A stretch of DNA of 7,792 nucleotides, from the NCBI GenBank assembly GCA_015711875.1, contig JACVJG010000109.1, forward strand, positions 1-7,792, in the 5' to 3' direction. Below are positions 3,737 to 7,792 of the stretch, piece by piece (within the stretch, counting starts at the first letter, position 1; each line of letters begins with the position of its first letter). Under the pieces are notes generated by a model that was given only the letters and a program-made list of their open reading frames with translations, had not been told where the DNA came from and made no database searches. Made by a program: the position numbers and the translations under genes. This DNA is from Candidatus Solincola jinzensis (lineage in GTDB: Bacteria > Actinomycetota > Geothermincolia > Geothermincolales > RBG-13-55-18).

Positions 3737-3828
3737 GGAGAGGTGCCAGAGCGGACGAATGGGGCGGTCTCGAAAACCGTTGAGCCCTTCGCGGGGCTCC
3801 GTGGGTTCGAATCCCACCCTCTCCGCCA
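3737..3828 (+). tRNA. tRNA-Ser (anticodon CGA, reads UCG)
   Basis: A complete class II cloverleaf can be folded by eye. The acceptor arms are GGAGAGG (3737-3743) and CCTCTCC (3818-3824), followed by G73 and an encoded CCA (3826-3828). The anticodon stem is GCGGT/ACCGT around the loop CTCGAAA, with anticodon CGA at 3771-3773. A long variable arm (GAGCCC...GGGCTC, about 3782-3798) is diagnostic for the serine/leucine/tyrosine class. The T arm is GTGGG-TTCGAAT-CCCAC (3801-3817). The G discriminator base and the anticodon identify serine. Confidence 0.97.
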
Positions 3829-3868: not shown

Positions 3869-4297
3869 TCAGAGCCTGCCACCGGCTTTGCCTCTCCTCC
3901 GTCGCTCCACCATCACGCAGAGGTCGTGAAGGGCCTTGATGCCCTTCTCCGCGCAGAAACTGATGGCCTGGGGGGATTCCGCCCCCGGTTGCATCCAGGC
4001 CTTGTCTATGCCCAGGGCGGCCATTTCCCGCAGCGTCTTCTCGGTTACGGCGGGTGGGCAGACGAACTCCACCACCTCGGGCTTTTCGGGCAGGGACGCC
4101 AGGTCGGGATAACACCTGTCGCCGAAGATGTCGTCGTATAGCGGGTTGACGGCGTATACTTTGTAGCCGCCCTCCTTGAGGTCGCGGTATACCCTATATC
4201 CGTATTTCCCCGTGTCGGTGGAAACCCCCACCACGGCGTAAACCCGCGCGGAGAGGAACTCCTCCACCAGTTCTCCCTGGTTGCCGAAATCGCTCAT
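3869..4297 (-). CDS. CoA-binding (Rossmann-fold) domain protein
   Basis: The product is 142 residues, a stand-alone single-domain protein of the CoA_binding_2/YccU type. It shows the nucleotide-binding loop AVVGVSTDTGKYGYRV (about 21-36), the following YKVYAVNP strand-turn, and the family-typical WMQPGAES and C-terminal LHDLCVMVE segments. Related domains form the N-terminal part of acyl-CoA synthetases (ADP-forming) and of succinyl-CoA synthetase alpha subunits. Stand-alone members bind CoA-like ligands but mostly have no established role. The ATG at 4295-4297 is preceded by AAAGGAACGGAA, a reasonable ribosome binding site. The frame stays open upstream to about 4570, but that extension crosses a repeat and shows no family similarity. 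The gene is convergent with tRNA-Ser (40 bp apart) and divergent from the TetR unit. Confidence 0.88.
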   Translation of the reverse strand: MSDFGNQGELVEEFLSARVYAVVGVSTDTGKYGYRVYRDLKEGGYKVYAVNPLYDDIFGDRCYPDLASLPEKPEVVEFVCPPAVTEKTLREMAALGIDKAWMQPGAESPQAISFCAEKGIKALHDLCVMVERRRRGKAGGRL

Positions 4298-4331
4298 TTC
4301 CGTTCCTTTGCCGTGTCTCACTCCCGACATG

Positions 4332-4340
4332 AATATAGCA
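4332..4340 (-). promoter_or_regulatory. Possible extended -10 promoter of the CoA-binding gene
   Basis: On the minus strand the sequence reads TGCTATATT, an extended -10 element (TGn plus a TATAAT-like hexamer). It would start transcription about 30 nt before the ATG at 4297. No clear -35 is present, which extended -10 promoters can do without. Confidence 0.35.
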
Positions 4341-4356
4341 TCTCCACCCCGGAGGA

Positions 4357-4449
4357 ACGCGCCACTCCATGACGCTTTCTGAGCAAACCCCGCCTGTATC
4401 GCCCGGTGATATGCGGATTTCCGCCCGTGGGGCACGCGCCACTCCATGA
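4357..4449. repeat. Two copies of a 16-bp direct repeat, 77 bp apart
   Basis: ACGCGCCACTCCATGA occurs exactly at 4357-4372 and 4434-4449. About 15 bp to the left of each copy are also loosely alike (TCC-CCC-GG pattern). On the minus strand each copy contains an ATG followed by codons for EWR, although neither belongs to a gene I can support. The bases to the right of the copies are unrelated. It may be a remnant of a local duplication or a member of a dispersed short repeat family; one window cannot tell. Confidence 0.6.
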
Positions 4450-4639
4450 TGCCTGCCGGGATGGTCGGTAGCATGGAAGGGTATATCTCCGTCCGGGCGT
4501 CAGGGATCGCGCTCGGAACCCCGGAGGCGACCCGCAAGCTTGAGATGTCGCGAACACGGCCGCACGCCATTCTCTGGAGAGCCTATTCCGAGGCAGGGCG
4601 TTGGCTGCGCCGTCAGGGCGTACATCCCTGGCGCCTACG

Positions 4640-4899: not shown

Positions 4900-5529
4900 A
4901 TGGGCGTTGCTGAGAGAAGAGAGCGCGAGAAGCGGGAGCGCGTGAATACTATCATCCTGGCCGCGAGGGATATCTTCTTCGAGAAGGGATACCGCGCCAC
5001 CATGGATGAGATAGCGGAGCGCGCCGAGCTCTCCAAAGGCACCCTCTATCTTTATTTCAGGAGCAAGGACGAGCTCTATATATCCGTCATCCTGGAAGGT
5101 TTCCATCTCCTGGAAGACCGCCTCAGAAGGGTGCTTAAGCGCGCCAAAGGGGCCGAGAGCCGCGTGAGAGCGGTCTATTACGCTTTCATAGACCACTGTC
5201 TCGAGAACAAGGCCTATTTCCGCACCACCCAGTATTTCCTCACCGAGGACGCGCGGGCCAATACCTCCCCGGACCTGGTGGAAACCATCAATCGCTCCAC
5301 TGGTGAGCTCATGCAGTACGGCGTGAGGGTGATCCGTGAAGGAGTGGAGAAAGGGGTTTTCCGAAAGGACATCGACCCGGGCATAGTGGCCTTGGCGGTT
5401 TGGAGGATGGCGACGGGCATCCTCGACCTTGCGGTGCTGGAGAGCGATGTCGTGGGGGGCAAAAGGCCTTACCAGGAGGTCTTCGATACCGCCATAGAAC
5501 TGGTGCTGAAAGGGATAAGAGCCGGCTGA
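4900..5529 (+). CDS. TetR/AcrR family transcriptional regulator
   Basis: The product has 209 residues, typical of the family. The DNA-binding helix-turn-helix spans about 34-53 (TMDEIAERAELSKGTLYLYF) followed by RSKDELY, the classic TetR N-terminal signature. The rest is a helical ligand-binding and dimerisation domain with no recognisable ligand motif. The ATG at 4900 gives MGVAERREREKRERVN, the normal beginning of such proteins. The frame stays open back to a GTG at 4789, but that extra sequence has no family character. The ribosome binding site before 4900 is weak. The gene lies first in a co-directional run with the small helical protein and the FAD oxidase, so it probably represses its own unit in response to a small hydrophobic or acyl-type ligand; the ligand is a guess. 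It is strongly promoted from 4640-4668. Confidence 0.9.
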   Translation: MGVAERREREKRERVNTIILAARDIFFEKGYRATMDEIAERAELSKGTLYLYFRSKDELYISVILEGFHLLEDRLRRVLKRAKGAESRVRAVYYAFIDHCLENKAYFRTTQYFLTEDARANTSPDLVETINRSTGELMQYGVRVIREGVEKGVFRKDIDPGIVALAVWRMATGILDLAVLESDVVGGKRPYQEVFDTAIELVLKGIRAG

Positions 5530-5559: not shown

Positions 5560-5568
5560 GGAGGTGAT
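5560..5568 (+). promoter_or_regulatory. Perfect Shine-Dalgarno that implies a TTG start
   Basis: GGAGGTGAT is a full match to the anti-Shine-Dalgarno tail of 16S rRNA. The GTG at 5564 and ATG at 5567 lie inside it and are too close to be used, whereas TTG at 5573 lies 8 nt after GGAGG. The start of the following gene is therefore set at this TTG. Confidence 0.6.
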
Positions 5569-5572
5569 GGCA

Positions 5573-5962
5573 TTGGCGCTCGATCCCGCGGAGGTGTTCA
5601 AGGTCATGCGCTGCGCCTGGCGCCACGGGGTGCTGGACAAGTTCATGGCCATCCAGGGGGAGGCCCTGGAGGGGGTGATGGCGGACACGGGCATGAACAT
5701 GGGCGACCTGCTGAACCGCCTGGACGAGGCGAAGCCGGAGACGGTGGCCAGGGTGGACCGCCTGCTGGAGCGCGCCGGCCCCTTGATGAAGCACCTGGAC
5801 AACGACCGCCTCATGGGTATCGTCTCCCGCCTGCTGGACCTCTCCTTGGTGAGAAAGGCGATGGTGGCGGGCATGCGGGCCAACATGGCCCGGGCGGCCA
5901 CCGGCGCCCCCCGACCCTCCCTCAGAGAGCGGGTGGCGGCGCTTGCGGGCAGGACGGCCTGA
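5573..5962 (+). CDS. Small helical protein of unknown function in the FAD-oxidase unit
   Basis: The product has 129 residues from the TTG at 5573 (132 if the GTG at 5564 were used). I do not recognise the family. It is rich in Leu, Met, Ala and charged residues and looks wholly alpha-helical, with no transmembrane segment, signal peptide or cysteine cluster (a single Cys near residue 14). The middle contains leucine-spaced segments such as RVDRLLERAGPLMKHL, and the C-terminus is basic (RPSLRERVAALAGRTA). It sits 43 nt after tetR and 13 nt before a duplicated start of the FAD-oxidase gene. It is thus probably co-translated with that enzyme and may be an accessory or assembly factor; that is inference from position only. 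Its last five codons and stop lie inside the 120-bp duplicated segment. Confidence 0.72.
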   Translation: MALDPAEVFKVMRCAWRHGVLDKFMAIQGEALEGVMADTGMNMGDLLNRLDEAKPETVARVDRLLERAGPLMKHLDNDRLMGIVSRLLDLSLVRKAMVAGMRANMARAATGAPRPSLRERVAALAGRTA

Positions 5963-6064
5963 GGGAGGTGCGGAGATGATCGCGCGGGACATAAGGGAAA
6001 AGCTCTCCGCCATCGTGGGGGCGGAGGACGTCTCGGAGGACGAGGCCCTCCTCTCCACCTGGCG
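5945..6064 (+). repeat. 120-bp perfect tandem duplication, copy 1
   Basis: All 120 bases are identical to 6090-6209 (offset 145 bp). The segment holds the last five codons and stop of the small helical protein, the GGAGG ribosome binding site (5964-5968) and the first 29 codons of the FAD-oxidase gene. The 25 bp that follow (6065-6089) resemble, with a gap of about 10 nt, the sequence that follows copy 2, so the ancestral unit may have been about 145 bp. Confidence 0.97.
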
Positions 6065-6107
6065 GAGCGGGGGACGGAAAGCGGCCCCGGCGGGCAGGAC
6101 GGCCTGA
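5976..6107 (+). pseudogene. Truncated duplicate start of the FAD-oxidase gene (43 codons)
   Basis: The ATG at 5976 has the same GGAGG and 7-nt spacing as the intact gene and encodes the same first 29-30 residues (MIARDIREKL...STWR). It then diverges through SGGRKAAP and runs into copy 2 of the repeat in the frame of the upstream gene, ending in the same AGRTA-stop. The stop at 6105-6107 is 13 nt before the intact ATG at 6121, the same gap as between the small helical protein and this ORF. It may be translated as a 43-residue leader peptide with re-initiation downstream, but it cannot encode an enzyme. If the duplication is an assembly error, this ORF does not exist. Confidence 0.65.
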
Positions 6108-6209
6108 GGGAGGTGCGGAGATGATCGCGCGGGACATAAGGGAAAAGCTCTCCGCCATCGTGGGGGCGGAGGACGTCTCGGAGGACGAGGCCCTCCTCTC
6201 CACCTGGCG
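6090..6209 (+). repeat. 120-bp perfect tandem duplication, copy 2
   Basis: This is the second copy of 5945-6064, with no mismatch. It carries the ribosome binding site (6109-6113) and start codon used by the intact FAD-oxidase gene; the five codons and stop before them belong to the truncated copy. Confidence 0.97.
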
Positions 6210-7599
6210 CGCCGGGGGAGCGGTCGAGGGAGGGAAGCCCCTGCTCGCGGTGCGCCCCTCCTCCACCGCCGAGGTGCGCGCGCTCATAAAGCTCGCCCGG
6301 GCCGAGAAGCTCAACCTGGTCTTTACCTCCTCCGCCCCTCCCCGACTGCGGGGCGACTCCGTGCCCTCTGGCGAGGGGATCATGGTGGACATGTCCGCCA
6401 TGGACAGGATCGTGCGCCTGGACCGGCGCAACAAGGTGGCCTTGATCGAGCCCGGGGTGACCTTCGAGCGCCTCATCCCCGAGGTGGACAAGGCGGGCCT
6501 CAAGGCGCTTCTGCCCCTGCGCCCCAAGCGGGGGAAGTCCGTGCTCGCCTCCGCCCTGGAGCGCGAGCCCATCCTCATCCCCAAGTACCACTGGGACATG
6601 ACCGACCCCATGCTCTGCACCGAGCTGGTCTTCGGCACCGGCGACCTCTTCAGAACCGGGTCGGCCGCCGGCCCCGGGTCCCTGGAGCAGCAGTGGGCCG
6701 CCGGAGGGGCCCAGAAGAACCCCATGGGTCCCGCCCAGACCGACTTCGTGAGGGTGGTGCAGGGGGCCCAGGGCACCATGGCCGCGGTCACCTGGTGCAC
6801 CTTGAAGCTGGAGATAAAGCCCAGCATCCATAGGATATGGTTCGCCCCCGACGCCAAGCTCTCCCGCCTCTCGGAGTTCACCTACCGCTCCCTGCGCCCC
6901 AAACTGGGGGACGAGTGGCTGATCCTCAACTCCTACGCCCTGGCCTCCCTCATCAGCGAGAGGGGCGCCGAGGAGGTGGACGAGCTGGCGCAAAGGCAGG
7001 CCCCCTGGACATGCGTCTACGGGGTCTCGGGATATGAGTACCTGCCGGAAGAGCGGGTGGCCTACCAGGAAAAGGACCTCTCACGCCACGCCCAGTTCGC
7101 CGGGGTGGCCCCCGTGCCCGAGGTGCCGGGGTGCTCCTGGCGCCGCATGGAGCGCCTCCTCTCCTCCCCCTGCGGGGATCCCTACTACAAGACGCTGCCC
7201 CGGGGCGATTTCTTGGACATCTTCTTCCTCACCACCTTGGACAGGGTGCCCTCCTTCCTGGAGGTCATGGAGGCCGAGGCGGAGCGCTTCTCCTATCCCG
7301 CCCAGAGGATCGGGGTCTACATCCAGCCCATCCAGCAGGGAAGGAACGTGCATCTCGAGTTCACCCTCTACTTCCGGCCCACGGACCGCGAGAAGGCCCT
7401 CGAGCTCTTCCTCTCCGCCTCCCGTGCGCTTTCCGAGGCGGGGGCCTTCTTCTCCCGCCCCTACGGCCCCTGGTCCGAGCTCGCCTACGCCCGCTGCCCG
7501 GACACCGTTTCCGCCCTGCGCAAGGTCAAGGGCATACTGGACCCCGACGGGGTGCTCAACCGCGGCAAGCTGTGCTTCCAGCCCCAGGAGGTGGGCTGA
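6121..7599 (+). CDS. FAD-binding oxidoreductase (glycolate/lactate dehydrogenase-like, PCMH type)
   Basis: The product has 492 residues. The N-terminal FAD-binding (PCMH/VAO-type) domain begins at about residue 40 (LLAVRPSSTAEVRALIKLA) and includes VDMSAMDRIVRLDRRNKVALIEPGVTFERL (about 89-117) and AAGPGSLEQQW near 200. The C-terminus has the family end LDPDGVLNRGKLCF (473-486). Relatives (GlcD, D-lactate dehydrogenases) oxidise 2-hydroxyacids with FAD and pass electrons to an Fe-S partner. The FAD pyrophosphate loop, normally glycine-rich (GGGT-like), reads TSSAPPRLRGDSVP at 69-82, typical of a less studied subgroup whose substrate I cannot name. The ATG at 6121 has GGAGG 7 nt upstream. No membrane segment or cysteine cluster is visible, so an electron-accepting partner is expected, possibly beyond the right edge. 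Its first 30 codons are duplicated upstream and its last codons belong to the terminal tandem repeat. Confidence 0.92.
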   Translation: MIARDIREKLSAIVGAEDVSEDEALLSTWRAGGAVEGGKPLLAVRPSSTAEVRALIKLARAEKLNLVFTSSAPPRLRGDSVPSGEGIMVDMSAMDRIVRLDRRNKVALIEPGVTFERLIPEVDKAGLKALLPLRPKRGKSVLASALEREPILIPKYHWDMTDPMLCTELVFGTGDLFRTGSAAGPGSLEQQWAAGGAQKNPMGPAQTDFVRVVQGAQGTMAAVTWCTLKLEIKPSIHRIWFAPDAKLSRLSEFTYRSLRPKLGDEWLILNSYALASLISERGAEEVDELAQRQAPWTCVYGVSGYEYLPEERVAYQEKDLSRHAQFAGVAPVPEVPGCSWRRMERLLSSPCGDPYYKTLPRGDFLDIFFLTTLDRVPSFLEVMEAEAERFSYPAQRIGVYIQPIQQGRNVHLEFTLYFRPTDREKALELFLSASRALSEAGAFFSRPYGPWSELAYARCPDTVSALRKVKGILDPDGVLNRGKLCFQPQEVG

Positions 7600-7792
7600 G
7601 ATGGCGGCATGGCACGCGCATGGCCGCAAGGCCTCCCCTCCCATGCTCGCCCCGGGGGAGGGAGCAAGCCAGGCCCCCAGCCCCAGGAGGTGGGCTGAGA
7701 TGATGGCGGCATGGCACGCGCATGGCCGCAAGGCCTCCCCTCCCATGCTCGCCCCGGGGGAGGGAGCAAGCCAGGCCCCCGGCCCCAGGAGG
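7578..7792 (+). repeat. 99/102-bp tandem repeat running off the right edge
   Basis: Copy 1 is 7578-7676 (99 bp), copy 2 is 7677-7778 (102 bp), and copy 3 begins at 7779 and is cut by the window edge. Copies 1 and 2 are identical except for a 3-nt ATG insertion after the start codon in copy 2; the base at 7679 (A) is G at the matching place in copy 3 (7781). Each unit carries AGGAGG, the FAD-oxidase stop TGA in its original context, an ATG, a GGCC-GCAA-GGCC mini-hairpin (7622-7633) and a longer GC hairpin (7633-7642 with 7656-7664). Confidence 0.95.
7601..7792 (+). CDS. Open frame with 33/34-codon tandem repeats, 5' end of a possible next gene
   Basis: The ATG at 7601 lies 1 nt after the FAD-oxidase stop, with AGGAGG at 7586-7591 and 9-nt spacing. 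The frame stays open for 64 codons to the edge. Because repeat units are 99 and 102 bp, the frame is kept and the peptide MAAWHAHGRKASPPMLAPGE recurs after 34 residues. I recognise no domain; the peptide is rich in Ala, Pro, Gly and Arg and may be low-complexity rather than a functional protein. In this position an Fe-S partner of the oxidase would be expected, but nothing here shows it. It may be a repeat-extended N-terminus of that gene, or non-coding. Confidence 0.35.
   Translation, partial: MAAWHAHGRKASPPMLAPGEGASQAPSPRRWAEMMAAWHAHGRKASPPMLAPGEGASQAPGPRR

Follow-up and report, generated by a model that had tools for sequence, protein, structure and literature searches.

At the boundary between a small helical gene and the FAD oxidase that follows it we observed a perfect tandem repeat which encloses a leader ORF. 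It is a real and recurrent boundary duplication, most likely tolerated repeat DNA of a repeat-rich clade. The window, the whole stretch of 7,792 nucleotides that was analysed, originates from Candidatus Solincola jinzensis. We consider it rather probable that the tandem duplication is ancestral to the clade, is tolerated and has been renewed by slippage or conversion. The features on which this view is built are:

4900-5529, forward strand: TetR-type regulator (PF00440), upstream and in the same cluster as the oxidase
5567-5962, forward strand: small helical gene, upstream of the oxidase (ORF and gene call), ending with TGA at 5960-5962, without Pfam or NCBIfam match
5945-6064, forward strand: repeat copy 1, comprising the last 5 codons and stop of the helical gene, an SD (GGGAGG), and the oxidase start with the first 29 codons
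5976-6107, forward strand: putative leader ORF, 43 codons plus stop (TGA 6105-6107), composed of copy 1, spacer and the head of copy 2; weakly called by a hexamer gene caller
6065-6089, forward strand: spacer of 25 bp, not a close copy of either flank, weakly similar to the tail of the leader in Ca. S. daggyaiensis
6090-6209, forward strand: repeat copy 2, an exact match to copy 1, with the intact SD and oxidase start
6121-7599, forward strand: FAD-binding oxidoreductase (PF01565), intact, 492 aa, 86% identical in Ca. S. daggyaiensis
7578-7792, forward strand: second tandem array over the oxidase stop, an SD and the next ATG (7601); 2.1 copies with 96% matches according to TRF

Positions 5945-6064 and 6090-6209 form an exact direct repeat of 120 bp with a period of 145. 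The coordinates, the perfect identity and the 145-bp offset had been reported in an initial annotation; an exact-repeat search of the window and TRF (5945-6209, period 145, matches 100%) both reproduced them. Counted from the ATG at 5976, copy 1 extends for 89 nt to 6064, i.e., 29 codons and 2 nt. At a threshold of at least 16 bp this is the longest exact repeat of the window, followed by repeats of 79 and 26 bp, both within the second array, and by one 16-mer. The initial annotation had further described the 25-bp spacer as diverged and as a mild argument against a simple assembly duplication. This holds: the spacer matches neither flank closely. The possibility that it is a plain diverged copy of a flank was examined and rejected. 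In the window the resemblance is suggestive at best (20 of 500 shuffles were as good against the upstream flank, 40 of 500 against the downstream flank), and the corresponding spacer of the relative G015 gave nothing (473 and 163 of 500, respectively).

The helical gene stops with TGA at 5960-5962, 13 nt ahead of the leader ATG at 5976, and the leader stops with TGA at 6105-6107, again 13 nt ahead of the oxidase ATG at 6121; each copy supplies a GGGAGG SD. This is the layout of a coupled leader. As the period of 145 is not a multiple of three, the leader enters the frame of the helical gene and ends at the copied TGA without fusion to the oxidase. Thus, the 43-codon ORF with its two equal gaps and the preserved stop/RBS/start relay, both claimed at the outset, are borne out by the sequence and the ORF list. 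Such a state would arise if a small tandem duplication spanned the junction between two genes that lie near each other on one strand; it would turn one stop/SD/start step into two and insert a 43-codon leader ORF. Because the duplicated unit includes the upstream stop, the SD and the downstream start, the downstream gene would stay whole and the relay would be rebuilt. Ku-dependent end joining with filler was considered as a route and discarded; of the 15 family genomes four had a Ku (PF02735) match, and G001, G015, G002 and G012 were not among them (genome completeness is unstated).

The oxidase is present in 9 of 15 genomes of the family (E 1e-150 or better). The closest oxidases for which DNA is available are those of Ca. 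Solincola daggyaiensis (genome G001, locus L001; 86% identity), of G015 (L030/L077; 84%) and of Ca. S. quzhuomuensis (G002; 80%). Two of the nine genomes, G001 and G015, also carry an extra copy of the oxidase start. The gene of the helical protein (5567-5962) resides directly 5' of the oxidase in many relatives as an uncharacterised partner gene; its orthologues are 85% (L001) and 82% (L030) identical.

In L030 two identical copies of 94 bp (360-453 and 492-585) occupy the same boundary, separated by a 38-bp spacer unrelated to that of the window. The leader ORF extends from 378 to 500, and a gap of 9 nt separates it from the oxidase start. In L001 a 45-codon ORF (527-664) comes after the helical stop; its TGA overlaps the oxidase ATG (ATGA), the stop being supplied by the oxidase's own ATGATC. 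When the first 96 nt of this ORF are aligned with the window leader, anchored at the start, 54 positions match, 51 of them among the 89 nt of the repeat. Equally long 5'-ends of 315 other G001 genes gave at most 45 matches with a mean of 32, i.e., none of the 315 attained 54. When a stretch of 60 nt was compared at any offset with the DNA upstream of the L001 oxidase, the highest count, 33 matches, fell exactly on the leader ATG; 4 of 295 controls were as good. A start-anchored match beyond the controls indicates that L001 carries an old copy of the oxidase start. Judged from these alignments, the extra copy in L001 is old and diverged, and homologous to the window leader.

In all seven non-carrier genomes which possess the oxidase, the helical stop precedes the oxidase start by a short distance (L014, L031-L035, and L036 with 31 nt), a count that leaves out L037, a distant second oxidase copy in G007. 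A slide test over eight loci, including the seven non-carriers, found no copy of the oxidase start upstream of the oxidase (24-29 of 60 nt, within the control range). At more distant loci the gap is 45 nt in L023, another gene is located in between in L017, and the others have short gaps, L020 aside. The initial annotation had proposed a comparison of the junction in related genomes, with this outcome: extra copies of the oxidase 5'-end exist in L001 and L030 and in none of the seven others.

The opposite end of the oxidase presents a similar picture. The second array (7578-7792), which was absent from the initial annotation, has exact copies at offsets of 99 and 102 with exact cores of 26 and 79 bp; the copies 7600-7690 and 7702-7792 are 99% alike. 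The contig end falls inside this array, and the frame from the ATG at 7601 is open up to 7792. The boundary between the oxidase and the subsequent Fe-S gene is also duplicated in all three carriers, the window, L001 and L030. In L001 an extra ORF of 93 nt sits flush with both genes and ends in a copy of the oxidase 3'-end (44 of 52 nt); in L030 exact copies of 36 bp flank a stretch with a run of N. Among the seven leaderless loci with gene calls, the two genes are flush or 1 nt apart in six (L002, L003, L004, L006, L011, L014) and 156 nt apart in L009.

In a tree of 15 oxidases the window, G001, G015, P0003 and P0013 constitute one clade (support 100/99). The three carriers are those clade members whose DNA was read, P0003 and P0013 being included as database proteins. 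A grouping of the three carriers apart from P0003 and P0013 was not supported (3 changes; 4% of 200 bootstrap trees). Inside the repeat, the window and L030 agree in 63 of 76 nt of the shared part, and the copies are identical within each genome. Copies which are identical within genomes that differ from each other were either made recently in each lineage or have been kept alike. Sites that tie the L001 leader to the window number 7, those that tie it to the L001 oxidase number 4, which is not decisive. The weak likeness between the window spacer and the L001 leader (59 of 2000 spacer shuffles were as good) favours one old event for the window and L001. The L030 spacer lends common ancestry no support; 297 of 500 shuffles were as good against the window spacer, 185 of 2000 against the L001 leader.

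On these sequence comparisons we favour ancestry with renewal, and independent events are a serious rival. The duplication event would most likely be older than the split between Ca. S. daggyaiensis, G015 and the lineage of the window. Later renewal by slippage, unequal recombination or conversion between the copies would account for the perfect identity seen in the window and L030, and the extra copy in L001 would have drifted. The duplication may persist since it presumably incurs little cost where the relay is rebuilt, i.e., by near-neutral retention. Single ancestral origin, renewal, near-neutral retention and translation of the leader are what we infer. The initial annotation had attributed the perfect identity to a very recent event, to gene conversion or to an artefact. 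A recent duplication or conversion would indeed explain it. An artefact is unlikely because contigs of two other species bear their own versions, one of them diverged.

Separate duplication of these boundaries in each species, owing to a mutational hot spot, is possible, yet we rate it as rather less than likely. The start-to-start distances do differ (145 nt in the window, 132 nt in L030 and 134 nt in L001), and the L030 spacer is unrelated. Further, two more starts of this cluster are duplicated in G015, that of the TetR gene (74 bp exact, d=107; L166 967-1147) and that of a later FAD oxidoreductase gene (104 bp exact, d=134; L170 1242-1479). In slide tests, however, the TetR starts of the window (4900-5529, searched within the window) and of G001 had no duplicate, nor had the later FAD oxidoreductase start in L001 (5398; 28 of 60 nt, with 115 of 295 controls as good). 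The Fe-S/FAD boundary of G015 is not duplicated. Altogether, four boundaries of one cluster are duplicated in G015, more than a uniform process would suggest. Yet gene-edge duplications are found at 13 places among 604 genes in the 783-kb sample of G015, two of them at the oxidase, the contig of which had been added deliberately. The same two boundaries in three species would require a strong hot spot, and no sequence cause for one was found.

How common are boundary duplications in the family? The DNA sampled amounted to 783 kb of G015 (the oxidase contig deliberately included), 600 kb of G012, 400 kb each of G001 and G002, and 200 kb of G007; a repeat place was defined as an exact repeat of at least 40 bp within 600 bp. 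G015 has 36 such places, of which 29 are outside coding genes. The 36 include at least one CRISPR-looking array (L069); CRISPR-like spacings were removed by a simple rule of period and length only. The corresponding numbers are 10 and 5 in G012, 2 and 2 in G001, 2 and 2 in G002, and 5 and 5 in G007. Small tandem repeats are thus abundant in G015; G001 and G002 are more fragmented, and some of their repeats may have disappeared at assembly breaks. Classified as start, stop, in-gene and other, the places are 3, 10, 13 and 25 in G015; 2, 2, 6 and 5 in G012; 0, 1, 1 and 1 in G001; 1, 1, 1 and 0 in G002; and 2, 1, 0 and 2 in G007. These classes rest on our own hexamer gene caller, the starts of which are fallible (the L001 oxidase was called 75 nt too early, at 586). 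An overall enrichment of start-spanning duplications was not found in the samples of these five genomes.

The 13 gene-edge cases of G015 comprise 3 of the start and 10 of the stop type, one of each at the oxidase. At the pstC-pstA boundary of G015 (L065 11961-12282) a unit of 173 bp (149 exact) creates an extra ORF which overlaps both neighbours; in seven relatives this boundary has no exact repeat of at least 14 bp, except for one 14-mer match in L162. Start-type duplications at other genes exist in G012 (2), G002 (1) and G007 (2). Such duplications thus recur in the family, and as the pstC-pstA case is private, the shared case at the oxidase boundary stands out. Tandem duplications over gene stops and starts also occur in the leaderless relatives G007 (L101 15762-15930, L105 6222-6378) and G002 (L084 5532-5747), hence the process extends beyond the carrier clade. 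G015 also harbours minisatellite arrays with units of 85 and 144 bp (L059 7159-7718, L129 15407-16045, L060 7159-7639). Contig breaks in G015 were considered as a sign of further repeats and dismissed: contigs C28, C26 and C19 merely overlap by 125 bp, which gives the gene order.

A selected translational relay, in which leaders before and after the oxidase adjust or buffer the coupling between the helical protein, the oxidase and its Fe-S partner, appears unlikely, even though it is compatible with either origin. It is attractive insofar as all three carriers have duplications on either side of the oxidase; the diverged first leader of L001 ends with ATGA over the oxidase start, and its second leader is flush between both genes. 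The boundaries are also tight in most other relatives, so coupling as such probably matters. The leader peptide, on the other hand, is not conserved. The window (43 aa) and L001 (45 aa) peptides share 15 identical positions, including a likeness near the spacer (GRKAAP versus GRAAAP); the oxidase N-terminus is identical in 28 of 43 positions. An open frame of this length has a chance of about 0.44 in this composition, for which reason we dropped it as a sign of selection, and the ATGA stop in L001 comes from the oxidase itself. The RNA fold over the leader region is not unusual (z -1.23; 27 of 200 shuffles were as stable), and the region has no Rfam match; a fixed RNA structure or known RNA element was therefore dropped as an explanation. 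What is kept is the geometry, in which every step has its stop, SD and start within a short distance, and a kept geometry is what selection for coupling of the real genes would tolerate. From the sequence, a translational role of the leader is possible. The likelihoods of the competing explanations overlap, because a relay could act under any origin. We regard as improbable a combined version, in which a self-renewing process copies the junctions of the cluster, conversion keeps the leaders identical, and selection maintains them as relay or buffer whatever the peptide, in a layout like that of mycobacterial interspersed repetitive units (MIRUs) yet non-mobile.

An assembly artefact or merged strain variants can be considered very improbable. 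The interruption of the second array by the contig end would fit; against it stand a spacer that is not close to either flank, and two other species with a diverged copy (L001) and a version of their own (L030).

Among known systems the mycobacterial MIRUs, which often occur in tandem, come closest to the boundary repeat. Bacterial minisatellites, i.e., small tandem duplications of the VNTR type, have units of about 100 bp that follow one another almost without mismatch. The present repeat shares with the latter a single locus at which direct copies of the unit are neighbours, and such places in G015 are mostly outside coding genes. It differs in that it spans a stop and a start, recurs at one boundary in three species and adds an ORF. 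In the relevant passage of a review (PMC12548453) MIRUs are described as apparently mobile repeats at start codons with an ORF that couples to the gene (Supply et al. 1997, cited therein), and their impact on expression as likely minimal. Short repeats between co-oriented genes with a small ORF placed for coupling to the downstream start, and presumably little damage to expression, are common to MIRUs, as portrayed in that passage (PMC12548453), and to our case; yet MIRUs are described as repetitive and apparently mobile, whereas the present unit is built from a local stop, SD and start and a gene 5'-end. The same review characterises translationally coupled short ORFs as ending near or overlapping the next start. 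The leader does likewise; it differs in being putative, as deduced from sequence, and in being unconserved.

Insertion of a mobile intercistronic element of the MIRU type at the start codons is the least probable explanation. Where the unit sits, how long it is and the way its small ORF is placed for coupling to the following gene do recall MIRUs as that passage presents them (PMC12548453), yet the unit is put together from gene ends of the locus itself, and no dispersal was observed in G001, G015 or G002. In a search with the 145-bp unit, in which 40 candidates per genome were scored out of 61-102 from a first look, the oxidase locus was the only strong match in these three relatives; four other matches covered 25-34 bp (E 0.004-0.01). 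Dispersed copies at many loci, the hallmark of MIRUs, are thus lacking in the three relatives. The location between co-oriented genes and a coupling-ready small ORF are present (5976-6107; the ATGA overlap in L001), and the MIRU spacing of -4 nt to the downstream start is seen in L001, the gap being 13 nt in the window and 9 nt in L030. The boundary repeat is therefore MIRU-like in layout and fails the test of dispersed copies. Apart from the MIRU passage, no description of duplicated translation starts or intercistronic tandem repeats was encountered among the matches listed in a literature search that left subscription literature mostly outside its scope. Among the matches listed for 'Solincola', titles and abstract beginnings pointed to other bacteria.

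The boundary duplication illustrates a route by which an operon gains a small ORF between closely spaced genes in one step, with both genes intact. In related species such a gain took place, or was retained, at the same two boundaries. If the leaders are translated and useful, this would be a simple route by which local DNA yields new small ORFs and MIRU-like layouts. Otherwise it is a clear example of tolerated repeat DNA which is liable to be reported as small genes by gene finders.

Two further features of the window are recorded here. A tRNA-Ser (cga) at 3737-3828, the sole match of the Rfam scan, has a deaminase gene (PF00383/PF14437) on one side and a reverse-strand gene on the other. 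Two 36-bp copies (4340-4375 and 4417-4452) located upstream of the reverse-strand gene called at 3869-4330 are 81% alike, stand 77 bp apart and share a 16-mer.
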